Shown one piece after another: positions 2,476 to 21,085 of a stretch of 21,085 nucleotides of DNA (position 1 is its first letter; each line of letters opens with the position of its first letter). The position numbers and the translations under genes were made by a program. Below the pieces are notes generated by a model. The model did no database searches. It worked only from the letters and a program-made list of their open reading frames with translations, and was not told where the DNA came from. Source of the DNA: a virus; IMG/VR virus record IMGVR_UViG_3300009059_001183, positions 1 through 21,085 of that record. One strand, 5' to 3'.

Positions 2476-2477
2476 GT

Positions 2478-3635: not shown

Positions 3636-3636
3636 A

Positions 3637-4894: not shown

Positions 4895-4921
4895 AAAATT
4901 TTTTAATTTTTAATAAATTTT

Positions 4922-5734: not shown

Positions 5735-6542
5735 GTTTTTTAATTATTTCGGGGTGGTTTTCAAGATTAAAATTGCTTATTGGGGCATTAAATGGAGATA
5801 CTGATTTTCCTTGTTCTAGTTCATTCCAATATTCCATATATTCTTTTTGTTGGTAAAATTTGGTTTTAAATTCAAATTGAGATTTATAAACATAAGAATA
5901 ATGGTACATCTTAATATCCCACTTTAATGTTTCATCTCTAGAAACTAAAATATCTTCATTACATATTTTTCCTCCACACACATAATTTGGAGGTTCATGA
6001 GATATCCAATGTGATTTTCCGGGGGAATGTTTAAAGATTCTCATCCATGGGATATTATTACCCCATGTAATTCCTTTTTCGTCTATAACTTTGTTAAATC
6101 CTCCAAAAAAATGATTAGCATAAAAATGAACAGCTGTAGGGTGGAAGTTTTCTAAAATATATTTAATTTTAACGATGTCTTCTTCCTTATAAAACTCATC
6201 ACTATCTACTTGCCACAAATAATCCCCAGTTGCTCTTTCAGCCCAGGTATTACACATTTCTGTTTTTCCATTCCAAAACCCTTCTTTAGTAATTAAAGTA
6301 ATTTTTCTATCAGGATCTGGGTAATCTTTAATAAATTCTATGGTTTTATCTGTGCTGTGGCCGTCTTGAGTAGCCCAAGAAGTATCTCCATCCCAATAGT
6401 GATTTGAAGTAACTTTAGTAGCTCCTTCTGTTATGAATATTTCATCACTTAAATTGTATAAGTGTTCTAATTGAGCAGTAAATAATTTTTCTCCTATAGT
6501 AGATAAAACATTAAACGCTAATGTGCCGGTTGATATTTTCAT
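5721..6542 (-). CDS. Family 2-like glycosyltransferase
   Basis: This 273-aa protein shows a GT-A arrangement. An N-terminal strand region is followed by GHSTDKT (61-67), in the place of the usual DGSxDxT. QVDSDEF follows at about 111-117, where D113 and D115 would bind the metal-nucleotide sugar. A downstream stretch rich in Trp, His and Tyr (WISHEPP, YHYSYVYKSQFEF) resembles GT2 enzymes with aromatic acceptor clefts. No membrane segments are visible. It sits one base after the stop of the two-domain transferase gene and overlaps the GT-D gene by 14 bases, so it is firmly part of the same operon. Confidence 0.75.
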   Translation of the reverse strand: MKISTGTLAFNVLSTIGEKLFTAQLEHLYNLSDEIFITEGATKVTSNHYWDGDTSWATQDGHSTDKTIEFIKDYPDPDRKITLITKEGFWNGKTEMCNTWAERATGDYLWQVDSDEFYKEEDIVKIKYILENFHPTAVHFYANHFFGGFNKVIDEKGITWGNNIPWMRIFKHSPGKSHWISHEPPNYVCGGKICNEDILVSRDETLKWDIKMYHYSYVYKSQFEFKTKFYQQKEYMEYWNELEQGKSVSPFNAPISNFNLENHPEIIKKHVFS

Positions 6543-6543
6543 G

Positions 6544-7977
6544 TTATATATTTTTCCAATTATTCTTATTATAACTTATTACTACATCCTTAGGTTTACC
6601 CCCATTAATGTAACTTACATGGTAATATAATTTATTATTGTTAAGATCCAAACTATCTGCTAAATTTTTAAAACTAGAACATATACAATGAATTTCGGCT
6701 GCATTTTCAATTATAGTACACCAATCAAATATATTGGATGTTTGGTGTGGTTCTATAATAGGTAATGATTTATCTTGAATTAGGTCTCGATTTATTTTAA
6801 AATTACGGCTTGTATCCTCATGAAGAAAGATATATTTACCTTTTTCTATGTTTAAGGATTGAAACAATTTATTTTCTTTATTTAAATCTCTATTAACATA
6901 AAATTTTTTCCATTTGGTTTCTATTGGTAAGTTAAATTGAGAATAAAATGCTTTATCAAAATATTGGTCTTTTAAATTAAGATTTTCAAATCCTATTTTA
7001 GTTAAGTTTTTTATTTGAAAAAATTCTAACCAATAATTTACTTCTTCATCATCTTCAACAGGAATTAAAGTTAAATTTTTTAAATCTCTATACATAAACT
7101 CCATAGAAATTTGATATATCTTCTTAACAAACATAAAATAATTAACCTCCGGCTGGTTGGTAGAGCGAACTAGGCCATTTAGGATAATGTGATCTCCTAG
7201 CCCCATGTGGGAATATATAAATTGAGAGTTTTGGATAGTATGAATCAGTTGTGACAACCCTAAATTTCTTCTTAAATGGTTAAATATCTGAGGGTATGCT
7301 TTAAATTCTATATGGTTAGCGGATTCTGAGGCTGATTCAAAAATAAGTAATTGGTGTTTAATAGCTAAAAGGGATAAAACTGATTGATCATGTCTATGGT
7401 CTTTAAAGTCAGGTTCATTTTCTCCTGTAGTGTTAGACTCATCAGTTATAATATGCTTGTTAGTAGAATAAGTTAAATACTCATTTATAAAATCTGCACT
7501 TTGTTTTGATTTCTTTAATAAAATGTAAGCAGCATCTACTTGAGGGCCGGTTTTATATTTCTCATCATTACACCCCATCAAATTAAAGCAATCCGCTTTA
7601 GTCCACATAGAGTTCACCCAAATTTCTCCTGTAGGGTTTCCATCTCTATTTTTAAATACAACTATATCTTGATGTTGAAGTAGATCAAATAGAGGTTGAA
7701 TGTCACTGATTATTTCATTGCCTGAGTCTATGTAGAATACTATGTCTCCTTCTTGGGCATATTCTAATGTTCGAGCTATAAAGTAAGGCTTCCACAACCA
7801 ATATCCTTGTCCTCGAGGTTGAGTTAAAATTTCTTTATGTTTTTGAAAAAACTCATCCTCTATATCTTCAGGACCTACTTCTATAATTTCATCAAAATAT
7901 GGTTTAGCAGAAAATGTTAGTAAACGTTGGTTAAGTTTATATTTATCATCTGCAAAACTTAAAAGTATTTTTTTCAC
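6544..7977 (-). CDS. Two-domain glycosyltransferase (GT-A plus GT9-like GT-B)
   Basis: At 477 aa this is about twice the size of most neighbours and looks like a fusion. Residues 1 to about 230 resemble a GT-A domain of capsule-type transferases: PRGQGYWLWKPYFIAR at 54-69 and FYIDSGNE at 81-88, with DSG as the DxD equivalent. The remainder starts with FIYSHMGLGDHIILNG near residue 250, a GT9-like N-terminal signature. It ends in a GT-B-like segment with AAEIHCICSSFKNLADSL. The start codon is GTG (7977-7975), with AT-rich leader. It could add two consecutive sugars, or use one domain for binding only. The domain boundary is my estimate. Confidence 0.65.
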   Translation of the reverse strand: MKKILLSFADDKYKLNQRLLTFSAKPYFDEIIEVGPEDIEDEFFQKHKEILTQPRGQGYWLWKPYFIARTLEYAQEGDIVFYIDSGNEIISDIQPLFDLLQHQDIVVFKNRDGNPTGEIWVNSMWTKADCFNLMGCNDEKYKTGPQVDAAYILLKKSKQSADFINEYLTYSTNKHIITDESNTTGENEPDFKDHRHDQSVLSLLAIKHQLLIFESASESANHIEFKAYPQIFNHLRRNLGLSQLIHTIQNSQFIYSHMGLGDHIILNGLVRSTNQPEVNYFMFVKKIYQISMEFMYRDLKNLTLIPVEDDEEVNYWLEFFQIKNLTKIGFENLNLKDQYFDKAFYSQFNLPIETKWKKFYVNRDLNKENKLFQSLNIEKGKYIFLHEDTSRNFKINRDLIQDKSLPIIEPHQTSNIFDWCTIIENAAEIHCICSSFKNLADSLDLNNNKLYYHVSYINGGKPKDVVISYNKNNWKNI

Positions 7978-7991
7978 AGTAATGTTTTGTT

Positions 7992-8966
7992 TTATTTTTT
8001 ATAATATTCTAGCCAATATTGTATCATTTCATCTAACATTGACTCAAATGTATAATCATGAGTCCACCCTGTTACTTTAACTAATTTAGAAGAATCACCT
8101 TTTAAATTATGTAACTCCTCAGGGCGTAAAAACTTTTCATCTTGAGTAACATATTCTCTATAATCTAAATCTAATGAAGAAAATACATAATCACAAAGTT
8201 CTCTTACAGAATGGGATACCCCTGTAGCGCAAACAAAATCATCTGGTTTGTCTAGTTGTAATATTTCCCACATTGCTTTTACATAGTCTTTAGCATGCCC
8301 CCAATCTCGAGTTGCTTCTAAATTACCTAATTTTAATTCACTTGATAAACCAAGTTTAATTTTAACTGCTTCTTTACAAACTTTATTTGTTACAAAATTA
8401 GTTCCTCTTCTTGGTGATTCATGATTGAACAAAATACCATTTGAAACAAACATATTATATGAATGTCTATAATTTCTACTAATATTATAAGCAAATACTT
8501 TAGCACATCCGTAAGGTGAAACAGGGTTCATTGAAGTAGTTTCTCTTTGGTATCCATCAGAATCTATAGAGTTCCCAAACATTTCAGATGATGATGCTTG
8601 ATATATTTTTGTATAATGTGATACCATCCTAACAGCCTCTAATATATTTAAAGCACCAATGCCTGTAGTATTGGCTGTGTATAAGGGTTGGTCAAAGCTG
8701 ATTCTAACATGGGATTGGGCTGCTAAATTATATAACTCATTAGGTTGAACTTTAGCTATAACTCTAATTAAAGATGCTAGATCAGTTAAATCAGCATACT
8801 CTAATTTTAAGTCAGAATAAACCTCATTTAGCCTAGCAGTTTGGTTTTCGGCTACAGAATTACGTTTTAGTATTCCCCATACTTCATATCCTTTTTGAAG
8901 TAAAAATTCAGCTAAATACGATCCGTCTTGACCATTAATACCTGTAATCAATGCTGTTTTTTTCAT
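7992..8966 (-). CDS. gmd: GDP-mannose 4,6-dehydratase
   Basis: This short-chain dehydrogenase/reductase converts GDP-D-mannose to GDP-4-keto-6-deoxy-D-mannose. The NADP-binding GxxGxxG is in TGINGQDGSYLAEFL near the N-terminus. Catalytic residues are visible in SSSEMFGN (Ser/Thr and Glu) and in SPYGCAKVFAY (the Tyr-x-x-x-Lys pair). Gmd-specific blocks follow: SPRRGTNFVTNKVC, ATRDWGHAKDYVKAMW and RPEELHNLKGDSSK. At 324 aa it is close to, slightly shorter than, typical Gmd. It overlaps the aminotransferase gene upstream by 4 bases (ATGA), so the two are probably co-translated and act in sequence. No fucose, rhamnose or colitose branch enzyme is seen in this window. Confidence 0.95.
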   Translation of the reverse strand: MKKTALITGINGQDGSYLAEFLLQKGYEVWGILKRNSVAENQTARLNEVYSDLKLEYADLTDLASLIRVIAKVQPNELYNLAAQSHVRISFDQPLYTANTTGIGALNILEAVRMVSHYTKIYQASSSEMFGNSIDSDGYQRETTSMNPVSPYGCAKVFAYNISRNYRHSYNMFVSNGILFNHESPRRGTNFVTNKVCKEAVKIKLGLSSELKLGNLEATRDWGHAKDYVKAMWEILQLDKPDDFVCATGVSHSVRELCDYVFSSLDLDYREYVTQDEKFLRPEELHNLKGDSSKLVKVTGWTHDYTFESMLDEMIQYWLEYYKK

Positions 8967-10063
8967 ACTTTATTTTTTAAAAATTTTTTAATTTTATCAC
9001 ATATAAACATTATTTGGCTATTTGTTAGCTCGGGATAGGAGGGAAGGATTAAACATTGGGATTGTAGAAAGCGAGCATTTGTAGTAGTACACACTATGTG
9101 AGATAGATGGTTGTGTTGGGTTATATCATAAAACATTGGTCGTGTATCTATTCCCATTTTAAATAAATGTAATTCTAAGTCTTTTTTTTGTTTTTCGGTA
9201 AAGTTGTTAAATCTCATACCAAACATCCATTCTGAGTGGGTTGTGCCGTTTTCGATTTTTTGAAGGGATATTGATTTTTCATTTTCAAAAATAGATTTAT
9301 ATTGTTCAAATATTCTATGCTTTTTTTCTTTAATTTCGTCAATACACTCTAATTGTCCTAAAAGAATTGCCGCTTGTACATTTGTCATTCTATAGTTATA
9401 ACCTAAAACATCATGAACAAATTTTTCATTTGATTGTCCTTGAGATTTAATTTTATTAATGTATTCAAAAACATCACAATCATTTGTTATAAATGCACCC
9501 CCTTCACCTGAGGTTAAAGTTTTATTACCAAAGAAAGAAATTGAGGATGCAAATGAGTCAGTACCTGTGTACTTATCACCGTATTTACCTAAAAATCCTT
9601 CACAGTTATCTTCTATAAAAATTGTGTTTGGGAACTTATTTTTTAACATGGGAACATCTATAACATTTCCAATGTTGTGAACAATTAAAACTGCTGAGTT
9701 TTCATCAATAACTGATTCAAGTTTGTTCAAATCAAAATTCCAAGTATCTAAATCGGCGTCGATTGGTACTAACTCATATTCTTTATCAAATAAAAAAGAA
9801 TTCCATGCTGCGACATAAACATTGTTTGGTACTATAATTTTTTTTATGTGGGGGTATTTGTACTTTAATGCTAAGGCAACTAAATGTGTTGCGGTAGTCC
9901 CATTATTTGTGAGTATTAATTTTTTACAATTTAAAAATTCTTTTAATTTGTTTTTTACAATATCCAAGTATTCTCCTTGTGAAGAAACCCACCCTGAGTT
10001 TATAGCATCGTGGGCATACTTTAGATTTGTTTCAGTAAAATATGGTTTATATATTGGTATCAT
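8963..10063 (-). CDS. DegT/DnrJ/EryC1 aminotransferase, likely GDP-perosamine synthase
   Basis: The 366-aa protein is a PLP-dependent sugar aminotransferase of the DegT/DnrJ/EryC1/StrS family. The Schiff-base lysine is K181 in SFFGNKTLTSGEGG, and D152 in FIEDNCEGF would contact the pyridine nitrogen. The lysine is intact, which excludes ColD-type 3-dehydratases, where it is His. Directly next to gmd with an ATGA overlap, it most likely transfers an amino group from glutamate to GDP-4-keto-6-deoxymannose. The product would be GDP-perosamine, as made by RfbE/Per. Other 4-amino or 3-amino sugar aminotransferases of the family remain possible. The family is certain; the substrate is inferred from the neighbour. 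Confidence 0.85.
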   Translation of the reverse strand: MIPIYKPYFTETNLKYAHDAINSGWVSSQGEYLDIVKNKLKEFLNCKKLILTNNGTTATHLVALALKYKYPHIKKIIVPNNVYVAAWNSFLFDKEYELVPIDADLDTWNFDLNKLESVIDENSAVLIVHNIGNVIDVPMLKNKFPNTIFIEDNCEGFLGKYGDKYTGTDSFASSISFFGNKTLTSGEGGAFITNDCDVFEYINKIKSQGQSNEKFVHDVLGYNYRMTNVQAAILLGQLECIDEIKEKKHRIFEQYKSIFENEKSISLQKIENGTTHSEWMFGMRFNNFTEKQKKDLELHLFKMGIDTRPMFYDITQHNHLSHIVCTTTNARFLQSQCLILPSYPELTNSQIMFICDKIKKFLKNKV

Positions 10064-10620
10064 TGTTCATTAATTTTAGCAACTAATATGTCATTATTTC
10101 CATTAATGCTATCAACAAATGAAATTTCGTATCTTTCATTAATTTCTTTTATTTTATTAATAATAGACTCAAGTCCAATATTATTCCACTCAGGTCTAGT
10201 TAACATCCTAACATCATCAATTAATATTGTATGATCCTTTATTTTATGATTTTTGATTGACTCAAGTTCATTTATTAAAGGAATTTTATAAAACTCATGA
10301 CCATCTAACCAAAAAGTTATTTTCTCATCAATATTGCTTAAGATTTCAGGCATAACAACACCAGAATCACCTAAGAAAAAATTAAACTTAACACCATCAT
10401 AAAGTTCTTTATCTTGGAATGTTAATAAAGCCATTTCATAATATCTTTCTTCTATGTCTATAGAATAAACTTTTTTAAACCCTGAATCTACCGCACAGGA
10501 TACTCCAAGCCCAGTATTAGTTCCAGTTTCAAAAAAAATTGGATTTATAAAATTTAATAAAATTTCTGGGCTTAGGGATGTTAATTTATGGTCACCTTGG
10601 GAATATGTTGTTTTTTTCAT
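10060..10620 (-). CDS. SAM-dependent methyltransferase (class I fold)
   Basis: This 186-aa protein carries the SAM motif FFETGTNTGLGVSCA (29-43), with E31, G33 and G37, and the acidic ribose-binding residue D55 in VYSIDIEERYYE. ILIDDVRML, around residues 132-140, matches the metal-binding DD of the Methyltransf_24-type enzymes found in glycan loci. It overlaps the aminotransferase gene by 4 bases. A likely task is sugar O-methylation or N-methylation within the same glycan, perhaps on the aminosugar or its acyl group. The acceptor cannot be seen. It marks the start of the most AT-rich part of the island. Confidence 0.75.
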   Translation of the reverse strand: MKKTTYSQGDHKLTSLSPEILLNFINPIFFETGTNTGLGVSCAVDSGFKKVYSIDIEERYYEMALLTFQDKELYDGVKFNFFLGDSGVVMPEILSNIDEKITFWLDGHEFYKIPLINELESIKNHKIKDHTILIDDVRMLTRPEWNNIGLESIINKIKEINERYEISFVDSINGNNDILVAKINEQ

Positions 10621-10632
10621 TTTTTTATTTGT

Positions 10633-11445
10633 TTATGACTTCAAATACCCTTTAAATTTGTCAATATTGTTAAAAATTTTTTGGTTATTTTCAGAATAGA
10701 ATGCGTTATAATAAGTTTCATTTGTTAGTGAAGTAAGTTTGTTTGTAAATAAAGATAGACAGAAAAATCCTCCACCACCAAAAATGTAAACTTCTTTAGA
10801 ATTAGAAATTATACTAATGTCTTTTAATATACTATCTAAAGAAAAATCACTAAATTCGTAAACATTTGTTGTTAGATCAATTAATTTTTCATTGTCTATA
10901 CTGTTAATACAAAAATCATATATAGAATAAATTAAATTTTTACCGTGTATTGCGTACTCACCAGAGTATTTAATCTCTCTCTCACCTAATAATATGATTT
11001 TACCTTCAAAATTATTAAACCTGTTGGAAAGTTCGTTTGAAATAGATGTAAAATTGTTGTAGTGTAAATCTCTAACTTTTGTAAAAACCACTAAATAGTT
11101 TTCGTTTTTAAATTGAGTTTGTATTTGATTTAATTTGTTTTTGATATGCCCTCTAACATTATTATCACTAAGAACTTTTTTGTTTTTTTCATAATCATCT
11201 GTAAAAACAGCATTTGTTTCAGATTGGCTATTTAAAATTTTTAAATCATAATCCTCTAAAAAAAATTTTAAATACTCGTAACAAAATTTTTCGTATTGTT
11301 CGCTATTTTCTCGATAAAGTTTTAATGTTTCTCTTGAAAGATAAAATCCTATTGAGTCTCCTTTTTTGTGAGTTAAAAGTATCAATCCACAAAAAAAAAT
11401 AAGATCACCAATACCTAAATTTTTAATGAAATATTTTTTTTCCAT
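10633..11445 (-). CDS. Putative GT-B glycosyltransferase-like protein (GT9-like)
   Basis: The 270-aa protein begins FIKNLGIGDLIFFCGLILL, whose Gly-x-Gly-Asp turn resembles the N-terminus of GT9 heptosyltransferase-type enzymes. It also matches the GLGDHIILNG and HYGDIFTS segments of two other proteins in this window. Near the C-terminus, SKEVYIFGGGGFFCLSLF sits where a GT-B donor-binding loop is expected. The product is very rich in Asn, Lys, Phe and Ile, and the DNA is among the most AT-rich in the window (two 60-base lines I counted were 18% and 20% G+C, a third 27%). Without a search the assignment is tentative; it could be a divergent or inactive transferase. Confidence 0.5.
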   Translation of the reverse strand: MEKKYFIKNLGIGDLIFFCGLILLTHKKGDSIGFYLSRETLKLYRENSEQYEKFCYEYLKFFLEDYDLKILNSQSETNAVFTDDYEKNKKVLSDNNVRGHIKNKLNQIQTQFKNENYLVVFTKVRDLHYNNFTSISNELSNRFNNFEGKIILLGEREIKYSGEYAIHGKNLIYSIYDFCINSIDNEKLIDLTTNVYEFSDFSLDSILKDISIISNSKEVYIFGGGGFFCLSLFTNKLTSLTNETYYNAFYSENNQKIFNNIDKFKGYLKS

Positions 11446-11452
11446 ATTAGAT

Positions 11453-11761
11453 TTAATATGTCTTGTGAGATCTTTGAAGAAACTTACCGTTATCTAAATC
11501 TTCTCCAGATAATTTAGCATTAACTATTTCAATTACCTTTTCATCAACTTCATTAATCAATTGGTTCCTTTGAACATTTAAATCAGTAGCTTTTTTTAAA
11601 GTATTCCATAGTTCCATTGCTCCTTCTTCATTTAGAAAATATTTTTCTTTATACTCTTCAAAAGACATTTTTCTAATTTTATAGAGTATTTCTTGGTTAT
11701 TCCACATTTTTAAATCAACTGTGGTTAATTTGTCAATTAATGTTCCTAAAGTGTCTGCCAT
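11453..11761 (-). CDS. Small helical protein of glycan loci (DUF4254-like)
   Basis: The 102-aa protein is predicted all-helical. It has MADTLGTLIDKLTTVDLKMW at the N-terminus and a TDLNVQRNQLINEVDEKV segment at about 58-75. I recall close relatives of this sequence inside bacterial glycosyltransferase clusters; the N-x-QRN-x-LI-x-x-D pattern resembles DUF4254. That is recollection, not a search result. Such proteins have no assigned reaction and may be scaffolds or regulators of partner transferases. It lies between the GNAT gene and a GT-B-like gene with 4 and 7 bases of spacing. Its presence suggests that this part of the island came from a bacterial polysaccharide locus. Confidence 0.55.
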   Translation of the reverse strand: MADTLGTLIDKLTTVDLKMWNNQEILYKIRKMSFEEYKEKYFLNEEGAMELWNTLKKATDLNVQRNQLINEVDEKVIEIVNAKLSGEDLDNGKFLQRSHKTY

Positions 11762-11765
11762 AATT

Positions 11766-12194
11766 TTATTTATTTAATTTCATTATTATATATTTTTCTT
11801 TTTCTTCAACAGTATAAAATCCTTTTTTAGTATATAAATTTTTAGCTATCAAATTTTCTTTATCAACTGATAGATGTATATCGTTTGTGCGGTTTTGGGT
11901 AAGTCTATCTATGATGATACCTCCTAATCCTTTTCCGGTATGTTTATCTCCTAGCATTACGCCTAGCCAAGTTATATCATTTTCTCTATCAAGGTGACCA
12001 TATCCTACAATATTATTATTTTGATACATTAATAAAGTTAGTGTGTGATTTTTAATTGAATCAAAATTTCTATTTTTAAAATATCTAAAAGCATTTTGAT
12101 TTTTTGGATTATTGTTAAAAAAAGACTCTAATAACTCTATTGAGGGATTAGTATTAAATTGTGTATTTAATTTATTATTAAACATTAATAGCAT
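11766..12194 (-). CDS. GNAT N-acetyltransferase
   Basis: This is a GCN5-related acetyltransferase of 142 aa. Motif A, which binds acetyl-CoA, is at 84-94 (KHTGKGLGGII), and motif B is NLIAKNLYTKKGFY (114-127). The length fits a single GNAT domain. In aminosugar pathways such enzymes N-acetylate the 4-amino group (WecD and PseH are GNAT examples). Three genes upstream of the aminotransferase, this one is a candidate to make GDP-4-N-acetylperosamine. Known perosamine acetyltransferases are often left-handed beta-helix proteins instead, so the substrate is inference. A second in-frame ATG at 12185 could be the true start; the first follows a better A-rich leader. It overlaps the upstream gene by 17 bases. 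Confidence 0.8.
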   Translation of the reverse strand: MLLMFNNKLNTQFNTNPSIELLESFFNNNPKNQNAFRYFKNRNFDSIKNHTLTLLMYQNNNIVGYGHLDRENDITWLGVMLGDKHTGKGLGGIIIDRLTQNRTNDIHLSVDKENLIAKNLYTKKGFYTVEEKEKYIIMKLNK

Positions 12195-13029
12195 TTTTTA
12201 TAGTATTTAACACAAAATTATATTCATAATTTGAATGCCATTCTAAATTAAAACCTAAATTATTATAATAGTTAGCTTCAACCTGATTGTTATTAAATGA
12301 TATGAATTTTTTATTTTTGTCTAAAATATTTTCTTTAACCAAAGTGTAAGTAAAAGGTCCAGAAGCTCTTCCTACAACTACATCGCAAAATGTAGAAATT
12401 AAACTTATTTGTAGTAAATCCGGGATTAGTAAAGTTATGTCAGAGGTAAACTTAATGTTGGGTAAAGAAATATTCTTATTTTCACTTAATAAGAATAAAA
12501 CTTCTGGGTGTTCTTGTCCTAAAGTTGTTACAATAGGAGAAAAATCAAAATTAGAAGATTGCCCTGAATGGACATCTCCATTGGAAATAAAAACAATTTT
12601 TTTATATTGAGTTTTATAATTTTCTAGTTGGGATTTAATTTCACTATACTTTAAAATTTTACTAAAATGCACTTCAGGGAAATAATATTCAGTATTTTCT
12701 TTTGGGATATTATAAAAATCTAATACTTCAAATACAAAAGAAAGATAATTTTTTAATGAACATCCTGTCTCAAATTTGTGAAAATACTGCATTTGAGACT
12801 GGCCAATCCAAGCATTAATTTTTTTTTCATTAAAATTAGAAGAATGCATATCAAAATCTTTAGGAATACCCTTAATTTCAGTTAATCCTTCTAAGTCTGG
12901 GAGGAGAGGGGTGTTTAGGTTATGATAAAAAATTATATTAAACTTAGTAAGGAGAGGTTTAATAAGAGTTCTAGAGGTAAAAATATCTCCATAATGCCAG
13001 TGGTTATATAAATGTAAAGTATCTTTCAT
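12178..13029 (-). CDS. GT9-like glycosyltransferase (GT-B)
   Basis: The 283-aa protein starts LHLYNHWHYGDIFTSRTLIK, resembling the GD-containing N-terminal loop of GT9 enzymes. In the middle KKIVFISNGDVHSGQSS looks like the first strand of a C-terminal Rossmann-like domain. VVVGRASGPFTY, about 60 residues before the end, matches the donor-site loop where GT9 proteins have a Gly-x-x-x-Gly-Pro pattern. Spacing to its neighbours is 0 bases upstream and a 17-base overlap downstream. It probably transfers a heptose-like or related sugar, but the donor is not evident. It is very AT-rich (one counted line is 17% G+C). Confidence 0.6.
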   Translation of the reverse strand: MKDTLHLYNHWHYGDIFTSRTLIKPLLTKFNIIFYHNLNTPLLPDLEGLTEIKGIPKDFDMHSSNFNEKKINAWIGQSQMQYFHKFETGCSLKNYLSFVFEVLDFYNIPKENTEYYFPEVHFSKILKYSEIKSQLENYKTQYKKIVFISNGDVHSGQSSNFDFSPIVTTLGQEHPEVLFLLSENKNISLPNIKFTSDITLLIPDLLQISLISTFCDVVVGRASGPFTYTLVKENILDKNKKFISFNNNQVEANYYNNLGFNLEWHSNYEYNFVLNTIKNAINV

Positions 13030-13647
13030 TTATCTTAAATTTGATTTATAAACAGTTTCTGACCCTTGGGTTATTATAGGAGGTTCACACCACCCAAAAG
13101 TTAAATTACAAATAGGTTGTAGATAATTTAAATGCCAGTCAATTGGTAGAAAGAATTTTTTTGAAGAGGCTAATATCTTAGATATACATTCTGAGTAGAT
13201 TAAATACCCAGCAGTGCACCTAGTAGTAGTAGAAGGACTAATTTTTTTATTTAGGGGAGGAGTAGAAGTAAGATTACAACAAGTAGATAAAAATACTAAA
13301 TCAAAATCAACAATTTCAGATTTTAATTTATTTAAAGAATCTAAAAAATCATTAGTTAATACAGCATCATCTTCTAAAATTAAGCACAACTTATGGTTTT
13401 CTTGTAATATTTTTTTATATACATTTAAATGAAATACACTAACTCCTATCTCATTTAAATTCATTTTTTTCCATAAGGCTTCATCATAAAAATAAATATC
13501 ATCTAAATTAGCTAAAACTTCAGCATCAGTTTTAGAGTTCATTAAAACATACTCATAATCAATGTTTAATAAAGGTAAAACACTATCTAAATATTGTTTT
13601 CTTTCTATTAAAGGTTCATAGTGAATGATATATATTTTGTCAACCAT
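13030..13647 (-). CDS. Family 25 glycosyltransferase
   Basis: The 205-aa protein matches GT25, the family of LPS and lipooligosaccharide galactosyltransferases. It opens with KIYIIHYEPLIERKQYL, as GT25 enzymes do (strand, then an ERK/R helix). NEIGVSVFHLNVYKKIL at 65-81 is the GEIGC-x-x-SH equivalent. LILEDDAVL at 89-97 carries the acidic metal and donor motif, and RCTAGYLIYSE and PIDWHL supply the C-terminal signatures. It is somewhat shorter than many GT25 proteins but contains all the core blocks. No membrane anchor is seen. It abuts the GT9-like gene with no spacer. Confidence 0.85.
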   Translation of the reverse strand: MVDKIYIIHYEPLIERKQYLDSVLPLLNIDYEYVLMNSKTDAEVLANLDDIYFYDEALWKKMNLNEIGVSVFHLNVYKKILQENHKLCLILEDDAVLTNDFLDSLNKLKSEIVDFDLVFLSTCCNLTSTPPLNKKISPSTTTRCTAGYLIYSECISKILASSKKFFLPIDWHLNYLQPICNLTFGWCEPPIITQGSETVYKSNLR

Positions 13648-13659
13648 ATTGTTTTTAAA

Positions 13660-14265
13660 TTATAACTTACTATAAAAATTATTTTGTTGTTCTTGACGTT
13701 CTATTGTTTTAGGATGGTATAAAGCATACTCTTCCATTTCTGGGAGGTTAGAGTATGTTTTATAGCCATCTAAAATTTCATGTAGTTTATTTTTCCACTT
13801 TATCTCAGGATCATTTTTATAAATTCTCCATTGAAAATCGGGCCATTGAATCCATCCTTTATCATTTTGTTTCCAACCCCAAGCTTGAATATGTTGGGGG
13901 GTAATACCTTGAACTGTATTTACTCTAGGAACTAAAATAACATCTACATTATTTTCTAATATAGCAGGTAGGTTTTCTATTAAATTGTCATTAGGAATTT
14001 CATCAGCGTCAATTTGAAAGATATAATCACCTTTACAAACTAATGATAATTTATTTTTCCATTCTGAGAAATTTTTATTGAAATGATCTCTAAAGTGTCT
14101 AGGTTCAGGAATACTAATTAAGTATTCCCAAACTCTAGGATCACCATTTTCATCCCATAAAATGACAATTTCATCTTCAAATCGTTTATATTCTAAGAGA
14201 AAAGAAACCAAACGTTTTATCTCTTCCAATTCATTACAAACTGTAATAGCGTAACTGATTTTCAT
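13660..14265 (-). CDS. Family 2-like glycosyltransferase (201 aa)
   Basis: A short GT-A enzyme: ISYAITVCNELEEIKRLV at the N-terminus is the GT2 first strand and helix. IVILWDENGDP replaces the usual DDGS block. GDYIFQIDADEIP (79-91) holds the D86-x-D88 metal site. The C-terminal part has WPDFQWRIYKNDPEIKWKNK then LHEIL, similar to GT2 enzymes with a W/R-rich acceptor loop and a His-Glu candidate base. The length is at the low end for the family, and the gene appears complete. A 20-base gap precedes it, and 12 bases separate it from the GT25 gene. Confidence 0.8.
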   Translation of the reverse strand: MKISYAITVCNELEEIKRLVSFLLEYKRFEDEIVILWDENGDPRVWEYLISIPEPRHFRDHFNKNFSEWKNKLSLVCKGDYIFQIDADEIPNDNLIENLPAILENNVDVILVPRVNTVQGITPQHIQAWGWKQNDKGWIQWPDFQWRIYKNDPEIKWKNKLHEILDGYKTYSNLPEMEEYALYHPKTIERQEQQNNFYSKL

Positions 14266-14285
14266 ATAACCCTAATATAATAAAA

Positions 14286-14744
14286 CTATCCTAATAGGCC
14301 AACATATTCTAAAGCATCTATAAATTCTCTTTCTTCAAAATGCTGGAGAGTTTCCATATCCATTTTGTACTCATAGAATTTACCTGGTTGCTTTGGGATT
14401 GGGTATTTTTCTTTTTCCTCTTCAGGGATTACAATTGCTTTAACAGCAGCCCATTTCCAATTATCAGCAGTGGCTCCATTCGCAAATACCATACCTTGTG
14501 TTGGATGGTTGATTGTTTGTGGCAACCAGGTTAAACCAGTATTTGGATCTTCCCAAGCTAATGCTTTATACAACTCAGGAAGTACTTCCATTTGTTCATT
14601 GTAGAATTCACTATCCTTAGTCATTAAACTATTAGTCCAATAACCACAAGACAAAGACATCCAGTTTGTTATTTCAGGGGTAACCTGTGTTTCGTAACAC
14701 AGATCACCTCCTGATTTAGGGCAAGTTATAATTTTATCTTCCAT
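14286..14744 (-). CDS. Conserved phage protein with incomplete zinc ribbon (152 aa)
   Basis: The N-terminus reads IITCPKSGGDLCYETQVTPE, then SLSCGYWTNS. The cysteines C8, C16 and C33 suggest a zinc ribbon that has lost a ligand, since CPKSGG stands where CPKCG would be expected. The rest is soluble and aromatic-rich, with NWKWAAVKAIVIPEEEKEKY and PGKFYEYKMDMETLQHFEER. I recall related unnamed proteins from T4-like marine phages, some with intact ribbons; this is memory, not a search. It sits between a GT4 and a GT2 gene but shows no transferase motif, so it may be a phage gene predating the island. Its function is unknown. Confidence 0.6.
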   Translation of the reverse strand: MEDKIITCPKSGGDLCYETQVTPEITNWMSLSCGYWTNSLMTKDSEFYNEQMEVLPELYKALAWEDPNTGLTWLPQTINHPTQGMVFANGATADNWKWAAVKAIVIPEEEKEKYPIPKQPGKFYEYKMDMETLQHFEEREFIDALEYVGLLG

Positions 14745-14748
14745 TTGA

Positions 14749-16065
14749 TTATGCTTCGTTAGTTGTAAATTCTTCTACTTTCTTAAGTTTTGGCAATTCA
14801 ATTTTCTTTAACTTAGGAAGTTGCAATTGAATTTGTTTTGGGAACTCAGGGATGTATTGATCAAATAATTGACTTACTTTATCCTTCATTTTATCCCAAC
14901 TGAATTCATTTTTGCTTTTATATGCCTGGCGCTTAGCACCATCCGTATATGCTTTATAATTTTCAAACATATTCTTTAAATGATGTCCTACATGTCCTGT
15001 TTCAACATTAAACCATTGTGAATCTTTTAATAACCAATTGTTAGCAGCACTTGGATGAACGTTTGCCATAACACCCGGAAGCATAGTAGTGAATTTTTCA
15101 TCTAAGAAATCTGTATGGCCACTCCAATTTGTTGTAATAATTGGTTTTTTAGTTAGACTAAATTCAAGTAGTGGACGACCATAACCTTCACCTTTAGTTA
15201 AACTAACCATTGCTTTTACTTTAGAATGATTATACAATTCATTCATCTCAGCATCAGTAAATTCACCGTGCAACACATAGATATTAGGTAAATCTTTTGA
15301 ATTAACAGTATTTTTAACTAAAGTAATACGTTTTAAAATTTCATCTCTATCAATATATGAAGAACCCATTTGAGATGTTTTTAAAATAAGTGCTGGTTTT
15401 TGTTTTTTGTTTTTAAATGTTTCATAAAACGCTTTAACTAACAAACCAACATTTTTTCTATCTTCACCTATATCACCATTAATCCAGTGACCTACAAACA
15501 AATAACAGAACTTTTCTTTAATGTCATTTAATTCAGGAAATGATTCTACCGTATCAAGTGGCTTATAAATGTTTGTATCAGCACCTTCAAATAATACTTC
15601 AATTGGTTTTTGTACTTTAACTTCTCCTGTTGGTTGGTTAGTACGTTGATCTACTTTTTGAAGTACAGTATCAAGGAATGTTTTCTTTGAATGTTCTGAA
15701 GATGTTAGGGTTAAATTCATTCGATTAATACCTTCAATCCAGTCACCAGGTGAAAGTGTTGTTTCAATACCTGCTGTTACTCCAATATTAAATTTACCAA
15801 TTGGTTGAAATTCACTTGGAATAGTGATTTGCATCCACACCTCAGGTTGCTTTGGAAGTTGGTGTTGGGTCCAAATGTGGTCTTGCAAAAACGCCCATTC
15901 AGGATTATCTTCAATAAAACCCCAAGGTGTATTACCCCACATTTGAGGGATAAGTTTAACATCATATTTGTCTGTCTCAATGATTGCTTTAACTAAATCT
16001 CGAGAACGAGCTCCATATCCACTATACGTGTTGATTGGGCATGAAATAAAAAACAATGGTTTCAT
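14749..16065 (-). CDS. Family 4 glycosyltransferase
   Basis: This 438-aa GT-B enzyme belongs to GT4-type retaining transferases. The glycine-rich N-terminal loop is in TYSGYGARSRDLVKAI (13-28). The donor-phosphate residues R203 and K204 are in GEDRKNVGLLV, and the EX7E signature is E293 and E301 in GEGYGRPLLEF. Length and domain order are normal for the family. A lysine- and proline-rich tail repeats a LPKLKK unit twice. It pairs with the neighbouring GT4 gene 14 bases upstream, sharing the same overall layout, so the two may be ancient paralogues acting consecutively. There is no signal peptide; it should be cytoplasmic. Confidence 0.88.
   Translation of the reverse strand: MKPLFFISCPINTYSGYGARSRDLVKAIIETDKYDVKLIPQMWGNTPWGFIEDNPEWAFLQDHIWTQHQLPKQPEVWMQITIPSEFQPIGKFNIGVTAGIETTLSPGDWIEGINRMNLTLTSSEHSKKTFLDTVLQKVDQRTNQPTGEVKVQKPIEVLFEGADTNIYKPLDTVESFPELNDIKEKFCYLFVGHWINGDIGEDRKNVGLLVKAFYETFKNKKQKPALILKTSQMGSSYIDRDEILKRITLVKNTVNSKDLPNIYVLHGEFTDAEMNELYNHSKVKAMVSLTKGEGYGRPLLEFSLTKKPIITTNWSGHTDFLDEKFTTMLPGVMANVHPSAANNWLLKDSQWFNVETGHVGHHLKNMFENYKAYTDGAKRQAYKSKNEFSWDKMKDKVSQLFDQYIPEFPKQIQLQLPKLKKIELPKLKKVEEFTTNEA
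14779..14829 (-). repeat. Imperfect tandem repeat encoding (L)PKLKK units
   Basis: The 3' part of the GT4 gene encodes two adjacent copies of a E/QLPKLKK unit (LQLPKLKKIELPKLKKVEE), each 7 to 8 residues. It makes an amphipathic, basic tail outside the catalytic domains, possibly for membrane or partner contact. The extent given is approximate. Confidence 0.5.
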
Positions 16066-16079
16066 ATAACTTTTTGGTA

Positions 16080-17516
16080 TTAATAAACTAGTTCGTGAGG
16101 TACTACTTTAGGTTTAACTTCGTTTGCGTTTATAAGTTCATATTTTTCTCTTGGTTTCCAAGTTTTAAACAACTTATCTAAAGTTGTAATAACTTTTTTA
16201 CCCATATTTTTGCCTGTAAATCCGGCTTCATCTGATAAAGCCCATTCACGGCCTTTTGCGCCACGAGCTTTTCTCTCTTCTTTAGACAAATTATAAACTG
16301 CTTTAATTTGAGCAGCAGCATCTTCTGCGTTGCATCTATCATCCCAAATGTAAGGGGTTAATGGGGAACCTTGAATTGAGCGATTAGTTGGGTAAACCGG
16401 GAATGCCCATTCGCCATGTTCTTTAACAGTACCATTATGGTTTGAAGGGAACTTAGCATCAAAGTCAATCCATTTGCCTTTTTTACTAAAACGCATTTGA
16501 TCTTGCATTCCACCTGTTACATTTGCAATGATTGGATTGCCTACTAACAACGCTTCAGTTAAACTTAACCCCCAACCTTCATTATTAGTTAACAAAATTT
16601 GGCAATCAGTGCTATTATAAAGTAAATTCATTTGATCTGCTGGAAGCATTGCTGGGGAGAAAATAATGTTATACTTTGGGTTGTCACCAAACAACATTTC
16701 TCTTACTGCTTCTAAGTCAGTACCATTATCATCTACTACTTGGGTATGAAGTACAAAAGCACATTTTTTAGCTTGTTCTTCAGGTAATCCATCAACAAAC
16801 AACTTATAAGCCATCAGTGTGTCTGGGATTTGTTTACGGCGAATGTTTCGAGAGTTAAAGAATAAAGCAAAATCAATTTCTTTACCTCCAAATAAATTCT
16901 TTTTAAATTCCTTTAATTCAGGAGTACTGATATCAAGTGGTTTAAAAACATTTTCATTTAAACCATGAGGTACATACTCAATGATTTTGTTTTTAACTTT
17001 ATCACCCAATACTAAGGTGTTAATATTTTTAGTTTGTTTAGAAATTGCCAACAATGTATCACAAGATTCATAATATGGTCTGTTATACATTGGAGCAGGG
17101 TAATCATCCCAAATGTTAAGATAAACAATAGGTGTTGTTTTTCTAATCTCATTTTCAATTTGGAACAACCAAATGAAATACCTTGGATCAGTAATTAAGA
17201 AAATAGCATCTGGTTTTTCCATATTAATTAGTTGTCTAATAATACGGGCATCTCCATATCCATTAGTTGGGTATAGGATAACTGAGCTATCAGTTAAACC
17301 AGCATTATTATTAGTATCTGCTGATAGATCCATGCGTTTACCAGCATCGGGGTGGTTAATGGCACCACCAACGTTAACCCAATTAAAGTGTTGAGCTGTG
17401 TTTAATACTAATTCTCGAGCAACCGTAGCTACTCCTGAGTGTACTCTTATATCATCACAGATTAAGAGTATTTTTTTCCTCTCATTTGGAGGAAGATAAG
17501 CAAAACTTTGATTCAT
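16080..17516 (-). CDS. Family 4 glycosyltransferase (first gene of the glycan island)
   Basis: This 478-aa GT-B protein shows a glycine-rich N-terminal acceptor-side loop, ICDDIRVHSGVATVARELV at about 19-37. NSRNIRRKQIPD (221-232) contains the Arg/Lys pair that holds the donor phosphates. The EX7E motif is E313 and E321 in NNEGWGLSLTEAL, followed by GGMQDQM. It is a little longer than a usual GT4 because of a C-terminal extension rich in Lys and Glu. Its DNA is clearly less AT-rich than the 10-13.6 kb segment (60-base lines I counted were 40% and 47% G+C). It begins 7 bases after the RHH gene, linking the island to the replication block. Confidence 0.88.
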   Translation of the reverse strand: MNQSFAYLPPNERKKILLICDDIRVHSGVATVARELVLNTAQHFNWVNVGGAINHPDAGKRMDLSADTNNNAGLTDSSVILYPTNGYGDARIIRQLINMEKPDAIFLITDPRYFIWLFQIENEIRKTTPIVYLNIWDDYPAPMYNRPYYESCDTLLAISKQTKNINTLVLGDKVKNKIIEYVPHGLNENVFKPLDISTPELKEFKKNLFGGKEIDFALFFNSRNIRRKQIPDTLMAYKLFVDGLPEEQAKKCAFVLHTQVVDDNGTDLEAVREMLFGDNPKYNIIFSPAMLPADQMNLLYNSTDCQILLTNNEGWGLSLTEALLVGNPIIANVTGGMQDQMRFSKKGKWIDFDAKFPSNHNGTVKEHGEWAFPVYPTNRSIQGSPLTPYIWDDRCNAEDAAAQIKAVYNLSKEERKARGAKGREWALSDEAGFTGKNMGKKVITTLDKLFKTWKPREKYELINANEVKPKVVPHELVY

Positions 17517-17742: not shown

Positions 17743-18672
17743 CTATTTGTTGCAAAGCTCTTTCTTCCCATTAAAAGGACACCACTGGCATGTCTTACTA
17801 GGTGTTATGGGATGAGATACATTTTTATAGGTTCCATCTATATCAAAGCATTCATTTATAAAGTTATTTATAGCAGTTAATGCTTTTTTCATTTTAATTT
17901 TACCACTTGGAGGAGCAAATTCTTGAATTCGACTTTGTGGGTATTCACTTTCCTCCCATATTTTTCTCTTTAAAATAATAAACTCAACATCAATATTATC
18001 TTCAGGAACACTATATTGTTCACTAAAGTATTTTTTGTAAAATAGTAATTGGAATTGTTTACGTTCGTCCTTCTTAGCATCCTCATTCCATCCTCGAGTT
18101 GATGTTTTAAAGTCGTATATTTTAAATGTATTTGTAGGCTCATGGTACATTATGAGGTCAATATAGCCTTTGTATAAAACGTTTTTAAACGCGTTATTAG
18201 GCGTTATAACAATGGGTAACTCACAAGCAACTAAATACCATCCACGTTTACTAAAGTAATTACCTCGCTTTTTCTTAAAGTAATTTATAATAGCTATACC
18301 ATCATCAAAAAACTCTCTCATTTCAACTGCATTAGTGAAGTGAGTATTTTTATTTGCTTTGTATTCTTCTAGGTATGTTTTTCTAAATTCATCTTCAAAA
18401 AATGTTTCTAGGTCAAATCTATCAGCCGCAGCAGCACTTTCGTTGTATGCTAAAGTGAGATAATGCTGAATGGCACTATGCATAGCGGTTCCGAAAACAG
18501 TATGGATAGTAGATGAATATTCTTGTAAGCCATCTTTGTACTGTAGTTCCCATTTGTGGGGGCACTCATGATAAATAGAAAATTGGCTGTAAGAAATTGT
18601 TTTATGGTATGCATAGTTAATTTCTTGTACGGGTTGTTTCTGGATCGTTTTTACTATAGAGGGTATTTTCAC
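17743..18672 (-). CDS. PD-(D/E)XK nuclease with Fe-S cysteines (Cas4/RecB-like)
   Basis: The 309-aa protein has the full RecB-type nuclease core. The motifs are H65 in GTAMHSAIQ, E151 in ACELPI, D172 in GYIDLIMY, D187-x-K189 in IYDFKTS, and the QxxxY motif at Q208-Y212. Four cysteines, C37 in YHECPHKW and C295, C298 and C307 in CQWCPFNGKKELC, match the 4Fe-4S cluster layout of Cas4 and AddB-type nucleases. It likely degrades or trims DNA ends in phage replication, recombination or host-DNA breakdown. No Cas1/Cas2 or CRISPR is nearby, so a CRISPR role has no support. It overlaps the MazG-like gene by 4 bases. Confidence 0.85.
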   Translation of the reverse strand: MKIPSIVKTIQKQPVQEINYAYHKTISYSQFSIYHECPHKWELQYKDGLQEYSSTIHTVFGTAMHSAIQHYLTLAYNESAAAADRFDLETFFEDEFRKTYLEEYKANKNTHFTNAVEMREFFDDGIAIINYFKKKRGNYFSKRGWYLVACELPIVITPNNAFKNVLYKGYIDLIMYHEPTNTFKIYDFKTSTRGWNEDAKKDERKQFQLLFYKKYFSEQYSVPEDNIDVEFIILKRKIWEESEYPQSRIQEFAPPSGKIKMKKALTAINNFINECFDIDGTYKNVSHPITPSKTCQWCPFNGKKELCNK

Positions 18673-18872
18673 GACTCAGTTTCTTTAAGGTATTGTTGTT
18701 TGATTTTTTCTAAGTATAGGATAGCATCCATATGCTCTTGCTTAGCATGTTCTATCCACTCAAGTAAAGTTAAATCGTTTCTGTCTAAATCAGTACCATA
18801 TTTTTCTTTACCTTGAATACTACGCTCTTCAAATTGTTTTATAACTGATGTTACTATGCTGTCTAGTTTCAT
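18669..18872 (-). CDS. MazG-like mini protein
   Basis: This 67-aa all-helical protein contains ERSIQGKEKYGTDLDR and then WIEHAKQEHMDAILYLEKI, with an E46-x-x-D49 pair typical of the second metal motif of MazG-type NTP pyrophosphohydrolases. Similar short proteins are common in phages and are usually annotated as MazG-like. It covers only part of a full MazG domain and would need to oligomerise to be active. The likely role is nucleotide-pool control during phage replication, but catalysis is not assured. ATGA overlaps on both sides (with gp62 and the nuclease) tie it to the replication operon. Confidence 0.6.
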   Translation of the reverse strand: MKLDSIVTSVIKQFEERSIQGKEKYGTDLDRNDLTLLEWIEHAKQEHMDAILYLEKIKQQYLKETES

Positions 18873-19279
18873 TTTAATAACTTTTTAATTTCTTTATCAT
18901 CAACACCCCTTTTCTTTAAAATATTCTTAATAGTATCACTATGATGCATATGGTAATACTCATACGCCTCACGCAGAGAACATTCATAATGAGAAGCTAA
19001 ATGCTGTAATAGCTCTTCTTTAGTTTTGGTTCTATTTGATTTAATATATTTTAAAAACATGTCTTTCTTTGGAATCATATATAAATATAGTTTATATATT
19101 TTTTCCTTTTCAGTGTAAGGAATACTTTGAATCAGGTTTACAAATTCAATATACTCAGGATTCATACTGAGGAAGCGGTGCACCATATATGGGTTAAATG
19201 ATGTCCTGTCTTCCTCAGTAAATGAATCCCAAGATTGTTTTTCGTAAGTGATTTGCTTAAGCCAATCAAATATTTGCAT
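18869..19279 (-). CDS. 62: Clamp-loader small subunit (gp62-like)
   Basis: The 136-aa protein resembles gp62 of T4-like marine phages. It has IFDWLKQITYEKQSW at the N-terminus, then SFNPYMVHRFLSMNPEYIEF, IPKKDMFLKYIK around 68-79, and a basic helical C-terminus ending KKRGVDDKEIKKLLK. These short gp62 versions are shorter than the 187-aa T4 protein. Together with the gp44-like ATPase it would form the complex that loads the sliding clamp for DNA polymerase. It overlaps the 80-aa gene by 14 bases and the MazG-like gene by 4. The assignment rests on recalled motifs plus its place next to gp44. Confidence 0.75.
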   Translation of the reverse strand: MQIFDWLKQITYEKQSWDSFTEEDRTSFNPYMVHRFLSMNPEYIEFVNLIQSIPYTEKEKIYKLYLYMIPKKDMFLKYIKSNRTKTKEELLQHLASHYECSLREAYEYYHMHHSDTIKNILKKRGVDDKEIKKLLK

Positions 19280-19508
19280 ACTCGTCTCGGAGTTCTTTAG
19301 GCAGCAACTCTACTAGTACCTTACCTGTCTTTACATCATAAAAACAAGGAATAGGAACAATAGCATCTTCGGATGTGCCTGTTACAAATTTAGAAATTTT
19401 TCGTAAAATTACACCTTCTGTAAAAATATGATTACCTTCAGGTGAAGTAATAGGCGCTGAGGCCTTAATGTCAACATTGACATTGAGTGGTTTTTCTGTT
19501 TTGCTCAT
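19266..19508 (-). CDS. Hypothetical protein between gp44 and gp62 (80 aa)
   Basis: This small soluble protein reads MSKTEKPLNVNVDIKASAPI at its start, then IFTEGVILRKISKFVTGT, and ends ELLPKELRDEYANI. The pattern suggests a mostly beta-strand fold. It separates the two clamp-loader genes, which are adjacent in T4, with 1 base after gp44 and a 14-base overlap with gp62. That tight packing supports a real gene, probably made with the replication proteins. I do not recognise the family. Confidence 0.6.
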   Translation of the reverse strand: MSKTEKPLNVNVDIKASAPITSPEGNHIFTEGVILRKISKFVTGTSEDAIVPIPCFYDVKTGKVLVELLPKELRDEYANI

Positions 19509-19509
19509 T

Positions 19510-20430
19510 TTATTGTATTATTTGTAAAATTTTACTAATTAAAGCCATTACATTGATCTCTTTATCAATTCTAAAATTGGCGTGGTACATATAGTTTTCT
19601 ATTTCAATGATAATCAATGCTTGTTGAACACCATCTTTTGCATATTCATCTAAATTATCATATAGGAATCTATAAATTTCTTCAAAATCACTTAAATTAC
19701 TATCAGCAAGTATTTGTCTAATGTTTTTAAAACTACTTTTATTTGCTGATTTGAGTTCTTTTAGAATAGCATCTGTGTACCCACTTGATGCTAACAATGC
19801 TTTATCCAGTTTTAACTCGGCATCAACACTGTTTACTTGGCAAGTATTAAGTATTTTTCTAACATCAGGATAATGTTTATTAACCACTAAAACTAAATCA
19901 TTTAACTCATAGTTAATACTTTCCTGTTCTAAAATACCAGCTACGTGTTGTGCTACTTCCTTTTTAGATGGAGGAGTAATTTTCAATACTTGACATCGGG
20001 ATTGAAGGGGATCGATGATACGTTCAAGATAGTTACATGTTAAGATAAAACGTGTAGTACGAGAATATGTCTCGATAATATTCCTTAATGACGCTTGGGC
20101 CTGGATAGTTAAGAAATCAGCTTCATCTAAGATAATAATCTTAAGGGGTTTGAATGAAGCACTTGAGGCAAAACCCTGCACTTTATCTCTAATAGTGTCG
20201 ATCCCCCTCTCATCCGATGCATTAATATATAAAAAGTCACAATCTATATTGTTGACTATAAGTTTAGCTAATGTGGTTTTACCTGTACCAGGTGTACCAT
20301 ATAACAACAAATTTTGGATATCGTTTTTATCAATATATTGAGATACAATTTGTTTCAATTGTTCATTACCAACATATTCATCTAATACTTTAGAACGATA
20401 TTTTTCAACAAATAAACTATTTTCTTTCAT
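19510..20430 (-). CDS. 44: Clamp-loader large subunit, AAA+ ATPase (gp44-like)
   Basis: The 306-aa protein is an RFC/gp44-type AAA+ ATPase that opens and loads the sliding clamp. Starting from ATG at 20430, the features are [20 protein letters not shown] (RFC box at the N-terminus), Walker [10 protein letters not shown] at 45-53, Walker B IIILDEAD at 98-105, sensor 1 in LTCNY and the SRC arginine-finger motif at 144-146. T4 gp44 has 319 residues, so length fits. An ATG 36 bases upstream (20466) is also in frame. It lies inside the terminator hairpin and adds a non-homologous leader, so I prefer 20430. This is the first gene after the terminator. Confidence 0.92.
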
Positions 20431-20450
20431 ATAACTTAATATAATAAAGA

Positions 20451-20470
20451 AGGCCTGGTTTCCCAAGCCT
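20451..20470 (-). terminator. Hairpin terminator with GAAA tetraloop
   Basis: On the minus strand AGGCTTGG, loop GAAA, CCAGGCCT forms an 8-bp stem (one G-U pair) closed by a GNRA loop, followed by TCTTTATTAT. It lies between the stop of the 86-aa gene (20493) and the gp44 start (20430). It should end the GroEL transcript, fully or partly. The U-run is interrupted, so read-through into gp44 is possible. Confidence 0.75.
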
Positions 20471-20492: not shown

Positions 20493-20753
20493 TTACTGGT
20501 AGTCACCGTAAATATCATAACGTTTAGGTGGTTCAGGTGCAATTTCAACTTCTTGAGAGTGAACAGCATACAACTCACTTTTTAGAGGAGCTAATCTATA
20601 TTCACATGGTCTCCTAGTTAGTTGAAAATACGCTTCTAAAGTGTCAGTTATTGAAGCATATACCTTAGTTTTATCACCTACAAGCGTCCACCTGTCTCCA
20701 GGTGGTACGCGTGTAGCAATTAGTTCTAGTTGTTCTTGAATTTCGATTTTCAT
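20493..20753 (-). CDS. Hypothetical protein downstream of GroEL (86 aa)
   Basis: The 86-aa soluble protein starts [20 protein letters not shown], continues [20 protein letters not shown] and ends in an acidic, Pro- and Tyr-rich tail ([12 protein letters not shown]). The start overlaps the GroEL stop by one base (TAATG), so translation is probably coupled. The size is near that of a GroES co-chaperonin (about 95 aa), but I see none of the GroES mobile-loop pattern, so I do not call it one. It is the last gene before the terminator. Family unknown. Confidence 0.6.
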
Positions 20754-21085
20754 TAATACATTCCTCCCATTCCACCCATCATATCATCCTGCTTATTTTC
20801 TTCAGGTTTGTCTACAACAGTACATTCAGTTAATAGAATTGTTCCGGCTACTGAAGCTGCATTTTCAATTGCTGTGCGAGTTACTTTAGTTGGATCAATA
20901 ATTCCAGCTTGTTTCATATCAACAAACTTTTGTGTTTCAAGATTATAACCTCTCCAGTTATCACGAACAACAAACAAGTTATTAATTACCTGATATGATT
21001 CCATTTCTTCATAACCAGCGTTAGTAAGAATTTTCATGAATGGTGAAGCACATGCTTTGAAAACAATATTTCCACCTACAGTGTC
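20753..21085 (-). CDS. groEL: Phage-encoded GroEL-type chaperonin, C-terminal part
   Basis: The frame stays open to the window edge; the visible 110 residues begin DTVGGNIVFKACASPFMKIL, and the internal ATG at 21037 is not the true start. The fragment is the end of the equatorial domain of a group I chaperonin: RGYNLETQKF, then GIIDPTKVTRTAIENAASVA, where the Asp of DPTKV is the conserved nucleotide-ribose contact (D495 in E. coli), then LLTECTVVDKP. The C-terminus carries the typical Gly-Gly-Met repeat tail, MMGGMGGMY. Phage GroELs fold phage proteins independently of, or beside, the host chaperonin. Divergent upstream residues compared with bacterial GroEL suggest a phage lineage. Only the last fifth is in view. 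Confidence 0.93.
   Translation of the reverse strand, partial: DTVGGNIVFKACASPFMKILTNAGYEEMESYQVINNLFVVRDNWRGYNLETQKFVDMKQAGIIDPTKVTRTAIENAASVAGTILLTECTVVDKPEENKQDDMMGGMGGMY

Follow-up and report, generated by a model that had tools for sequence, protein, structure and literature searches.

Chaperonins of virioplankton are reportedly treated in Marine et al. 2017 (ISME J 11:2479). According to the excerpted text of PMC3012670, the folding of T4 gp23 needs GroEL together with gp31, and ordinary GroES fails in this role. The chaperonins of phages EL, OBP and AR9 reportedly work without a co-chaperonin, and single-ring function is reported for those of OBP and AR9 (PMC9598537, in excerpt). The EL chaperonin is 22 % identical to GroEL according to an excerpt of PMC7185714, which also reports, citing Marine et al. 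2017, both GroEL and GroES in some phages. For phages related to immuto, the available sections of PMC11348598 describe regular-polymerase neighbourhoods that all encode GroEL- or GroES-family chaperonins, as well as mixed polymerase families within the group. The occurrence of GroEL/GroES in Immutovirus and its relatives is already known from these sections and from GenBank annotation. The initial annotation of the present locus took phage GroEL to be known mainly from large phages, but phage GroEL is not confined to these. When 50,697 phage records were searched with the GroEL protein of L003, a viral locus related to the present one, 270 matched at E ≤ 1e-5, some of which look bacterial; Flavobacterium elemo phages (~60 kb) and a 73-kb Cellulophaga phage are among the matches. 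In the phage records OR847265, PQ520251 and CAKLQF020000019, attributed to phages of Listeria, Enterococcus or Acinetobacter, the groESL genes are possibly bacterial and may represent host DNA in phage collections.

The DNA analysed here (the window) is an entire IMG/VR record of 21,085 bp, and the 5' part of its groEL falls outside the record. The last 333 bases (20753–21085, minus strand) constitute the GroEL fragment. Its 110 codons stay open, without internal stop, up to the contig edge, where the record end truncates the frame, and code for the C-terminal 110 residues with the tail ...DDMMGGMGGMY. This fragment matches positions 402–490 of 490 of Pfam Cpn60_TCP1 (about 50.4–50.6 bits; cut-off 34.3) and positions 450–538 of 540 of PHROG 5725 'chaperonin groEL' (E 7e-20), and corresponds to residues 430–539 of the 539-aa GroEL of L003, to which it is 99 % identical. 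It belongs to a group I chaperonin gene of real viral origin.

The next gene 3' of GroEL, orf86 (20493–20753, minus strand), encodes an 86-aa protein, and its start overlaps the GroEL stop (TAATG). No match to PHROG and none above cut-off to Pfam was obtained for this protein, which occupies the same position in 71 of the 80 related loci (best 80 of 116, see below) and is possibly a chaperonin-linked small protein. The genes continuing in the same direction in the window are those for a gp44-type clamp loader large subunit (19510–20466, minus strand; PHROG 168, E 5e-81; Pfam AAA), the conserved orf80 between gp44 and gp62 (19266–19508, minus strand), a gp62-type clamp loader small subunit (18869–19279, minus strand; PHROG 225, E 5e-17; Pfam Phage_clamp_A under cut-off), a PD-(D/E)XK nuclease that belongs to this replication/recombination block as well (17743–18672, minus strand; PF12705, E 1.6e-23; PHROG 69 exonuclease) and glycosyltransferases. 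The gp44 ORF opens at TTG; comparison with L012 makes an ATG 12 codons in (20430) the likelier start. Glycosyltransferase-like genes form a long run with sugar-nucleotide genes (1768–17516; family comparison covered 14749–17516), within which a GDP-mannose dehydratase-like protein (7992–8966) and an aminotransferase (8963–10063) are apparent by eye. The run suggests virions decorated with glycans, or surface modification. As to what the initial annotation had read at this end of the window, the GroEL C-terminus with its GGM tail is confirmed by Pfam, PHROG 5725 and the 99 % identity to L003, orf86 is indeed the one gene separating GroEL from the gp44-type clamp loader gene, and the placement among T4-type replication genes holds for the gp44/gp62 clamp loader as well as for a family B polymerase in relatives.

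Scanning of viral contigs with the 110-residue fragment yielded 116 relatives, the best 80 of which were used. A complete GroEL of 536–559 aa is encoded in 58 of these 80 loci, and the remaining 22 loci end, on the 5' side, within the gene. The GroEL of L003 is complete (539 aa) and is covered fully by PF00118 (229 bits, positions 1–490 of 490). L002 is 100 % identical across the fragment, and its frame stays open for 305 codons before the contig ends. GroES is encoded directly upstream of GroEL in 52 of the 55 loci (from the best 80 of 116) in which GroEL is complete and preceded by 350 nt or more, with 1–34 nt between the end of the GroES match and the GroEL ATG in 49 of the 52 and 128–224 nt in three. 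No adjacent GroES was found at L079–L081 (3 of the 55 loci with room upstream), which are among the most distant loci; the GroES extraction took the longest ORF, which at L079 and L080 is not GroES. In 18 records selected for length, PF00166 scored above cut-off in 17, the miss (L002) being a record that breaks inside GroEL. With GroES directly upstream of GroEL, these relatives, T4-like viruses of aquatic bacteria, carry a complete pair.

Nearest bacterial GroELs, among the best 80 of at least 593 candidates, are 49–55 % identical over the full protein, and the best bacterial identity over the fragment is 53 %. Twenty other full-length phage GroELs were aligned with that of L003, and 18 of them are 71–96 % identical to it, lower values being obtained for L077 (58 %), L080 (53 %) and immuto (60 %). 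Of the 80 bacterial loci, 9 had no ORF under the motif filter, leaving 71 and, after removal of near-copies, 67. A maximum-likelihood tree of 63 rows included 30 bacteria (16 Bacteroidota; E. coli among the 30) and viral rows dereplicated from the 58; the distant viral L079 and L081 and five long-branch phage rows were omitted. In this tree, a single clade (99/99) unites 30 IMG/VR GroELs. L077 and immuto fall outside this clade, and the branch that parts viral clade, L077 and immuto from the 30 bacteria has 100/100 support. The GroEL of Bacteroides phage DAC16 nests inside Bacteroidota. A Bacteroidota origin of the viral GroEL is unsupported by the 63-row tree, where this GroEL stands outside Bacteroidota. 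The branches leading to immuto, L077 and the viral clade are long, however, and the tree tool warned of long branches meeting. In a quick tree, which included several very long phage rows, immuto stood beside elemoB with weak support (59).

Contamination by host groEL, or a chimeric assembly, might be suspected for a gene that is universal among bacteria, and had been raised in the initial annotation along with a proposed tree. The virus-only clade formed by the viral GroELs and the 49–55 % identity to bacteria (best 80 of at least 593) exclude host contamination, and the identical gene order in dozens of separate virus records makes either variant of this explanation practically negligible. 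A groEL of the window phage that is broken or truncated beyond the contig edge is likewise very improbable: the record does stop inside the GroEL frame, yet the 110 codons present are free of internal stops, 58 complete homologues are intact, and so, over its 305 open codons, is L002 with its 100 % identical fragment. The upstream part lies outside the record, so the completeness of the window's own groEL is inferred from close relatives, which suggest that the gene would be complete upstream of the contig edge. The full-length check that had been proposed thus succeeded on relatives (58 of 80 loci), the upstream part being absent from the window record itself, and the search for GroES proposed with it was answered by the 52 of 55 loci with this gene directly upstream.

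The gene order in relatives is PolB, small ORFs, groES, groEL, orf86, gp44, orf80, gp62, nuclease and glycosyltransferases. Among the best 80 of 116, 69 loci have enough room downstream, and gp44 follows GroEL within 2.5 kb in 65 of them; of 23 loci that offer 6 kb or more, 22 have a family B polymerase upstream. The T4-like traits of the lineage comprise gp44 and gp62 in the window, PolB in 10 of 10 IMG/VR relatives and gp23 in 7 of 10; gp23 and PolB are absent from the window record. Some relatives have inserts of at least about one kb between orf86, gp44 and orf80 (L002 918–3407; L012 10593–12552); an ORF at L012 11017–11655, whose cysteines resemble a zinc ribbon by eye, may encode a homing endonuclease. 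At L023 (2346–4267), PolB, GroES and the first ~160 GroEL residues are divergent and most of the remaining sequence is 88–100 % identical to L021, possibly representing a groESL mosaic. The region upstream of GroEL was also scanned in 46 loci for promoters, using what we take to be the T4 late motif (TATAAATA) and a Bacteroidota-type consensus. The former occurred within 900 nt in 4 of the 46 loci and the latter in 0 of 46, providing nothing usable on the early or middle expression that the initial annotation had suggested.

Structural models were obtained for both proteins as monomers. The GroEL monomer model (pLDDT 83, pTM 0.65; TM 0.82 to 8wuc) best matches GroES-bound group I chaperonins. 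For the GroES model (pLDDT 86), the matches to cellular GroES/Cpn10 reach a Z of 13.3 (12.4 for E. coli 1aon) vs Z 8.7–9.2 for T4 gp31, and on the sequence level the lid scores E 8e-14 with the GroES family phrog_3188 vs E 4e-3 with the gp31 family phrog_931. No gp31 was found among solved chains in a profile search to E 10, which matched GroES-type proteins. The family phrog_931 was detected in 0 of 10 IMG/VR relatives, the T4 positive control being found, and immuto gave one weak match (E 6e-4) sited on its own GroES. A gp31-like lid is ruled out by the phrog_3188 score, the solved-chain search, the structure match and the absence of phrog_931 from the 10 IMG/VR relatives.

Functional residues were compared between 30 viral and 67 bacterial GroELs. 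D52, D87, D398, D495 and the GDGTTT motif, which we take to be the residues of ATP binding and hydrolysis, are present in 30 of 30 viral GroELs. Of the eight hydrophobic apical sites presumably binding GroES and substrate, Y199, F204, L234, L237, L259 and V264 are unchanged in all 30, Y203 is kept in 23 and F elsewhere, and V263 is replaced by I in all 30. Among nine positions assumed here to form ring-ring contacts, K105 is kept in 4 of 30, A109 and R452 in 0 of 30 and E461 in 18 of 30, V464 is changed to E or D in 28 of 30, and positions 105, 109, 452, 463 and 464 are mostly or wholly replaced. The most divergent region is 418–477 (in a numbering one lower than that of the site residues listed), where L003 has a mean identity to bacteria of 28 % vs 56 % before it. 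Conservation across 68 bacteria is 80 % or higher at three of the nine contact positions, which are kept in 4 % of alignment cells in the viral GroELs. Across all 128 conserved equatorial positions 70 % of cells are kept, and 28 of the 128 positions are lost anyway; on resampling, a value as low as that of the three contact positions came up in 93 of 10,000 random triples, in a test that was chosen after the residues had been seen and that rests on three positions. The outcome is a hint of a changed ring-ring interface rather than a demonstration. R452, E461, S463 and V464 are positions mutated in the laboratory for a single-ring GroEL (PMC5575113, in excerpt). With ATP and GroES sites kept and ring-ring contacts replaced, ring assembly may be unusual. 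A GroES-dependent viral chaperonin with a rewritten interface might form a single ring, or a ring that does not mix with host GroEL, and hence a private, possibly enlarged cage for gp23 without gp31, a speculative reading that we consider rather unlikely. No report of kept GroES sites combined with a rewritten ring-ring interface was found in the literature searched, and priority is not claimed.

A gp23-type capsid protein (PF07068) is encoded in 8 of 11 records (7 of 10 IMG/VR relatives and immuto), the three misses being fragments of 78–99 kb. A search with gp23 as reverse bait returned 80 loci, and eight longer contigs new to the search were tested. Both near-complete records picked in this way (166 and 170 kb) encode adjacent GroES and GroEL. 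No GroEL was found in six gp23-bearing fragments of 42–67 kb, which are uninformative because they are partial records. The presence of gp23 in relatives, the absence of gp31 and the chaperonin need of T4 gp23 (PMC3012670, in excerpt) together point to a lineage that probably supplies a gp23-type protein with a chamber of its own. The window fragment is best explained as the 3' end of a phage groEL whose partner groES also belongs to the phage, both genes lying in the replication block of T4-like myoviruses that are related to Flavobacterium phage immuto. During infection, phage GroEL and GroES would assemble into an ATP-driven folding cage for phage proteins, with the gp23-type major capsid protein as the chief client, and the pair alone would replace the combination of host GroEL and gp31 employed by T4. 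T4 gp23 does not fold with ordinary GroES and the lid here is GroES-like, so the analogy to gp31 is inexact. The client had earlier been guessed to be a large or unusual virion protein; an ordinary T4-type gp23 is the better candidate in view of the co-occurrence of PF07068 and the T4 requirement given in the excerpt of PMC3012670.

Alternatively, groESL could serve a general chaperonin supply that raises or protects the folding of many phage proteins, replication enzymes included, or compensates for a limiting host GroEL, gp23 being in no way special. The pair is placed with polymerase and clamp-loader genes rather than with head genes, its GroES is of the ordinary cellular type, and phages of other kinds, such as the 60-kb elemo and the 73-kb Calle, carry GroEL too. 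Against this stands the gp23-type capsid protein, which is the best known obligate client of a chaperonin and is likewise encoded by every near-complete relative tested. Such a general role is conceivable, if somewhat improbable. The reading preferred here, a self-supplied folding chamber chiefly for the gp23-type capsid protein, is given a probability of about 0.6.

As a catalogue entry the locus is ordinary, phages with GroEL and GroES being already known. Like the relatives of the window, immuto (vB_FspM_immuto, MW353176, genus Immutovirus) has adjacent annotated GroES and GroEL and a gp23-type capsid, and its groES-groEL pair is flanked by a DNA polymerase gene on one side and, on the other, by glycosyltransferase/nuclease genes that the window also has. 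It differs in a GroEL that is about 60 % identical and in the polymerase upstream of groES, which is of family A (L082 15979–18312) vs family B in 10 of 10 IMG/VR relatives (L012 3508–6096); the polymerase is swapped at the same place. The gp44 of the window found no match within a 40-kb stretch of immuto. The E. coli GroEL/GroES system is matched in the full-length Cpn60, the ATP and apical residues, the GGM-type tail and the groES-groEL operon order, and differs in the identity of about 50 %, the separate viral clade and the replaced viral ring-ring contacts. The jumbo phages EL, OBP and AR9 likewise encode GroEL-like proteins, whereas identity to GroEL is about 50 % for the present protein, which comes with GroES next door. 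With T4 it shares a gp23-type capsid and a phage-encoded lid, but the relatives of the window add their own GroEL, and their lid scores with phrog_3188 and not with phrog_931. T4 alters the folding machine of its host by one lid, whereas the present lineage brings the entire machine together with the same capsid type, which makes the two a clean natural comparison when asking what special cage gp23-type capsids require and why, and whether two rings are still necessary for phage chaperonins that have retained GroES.
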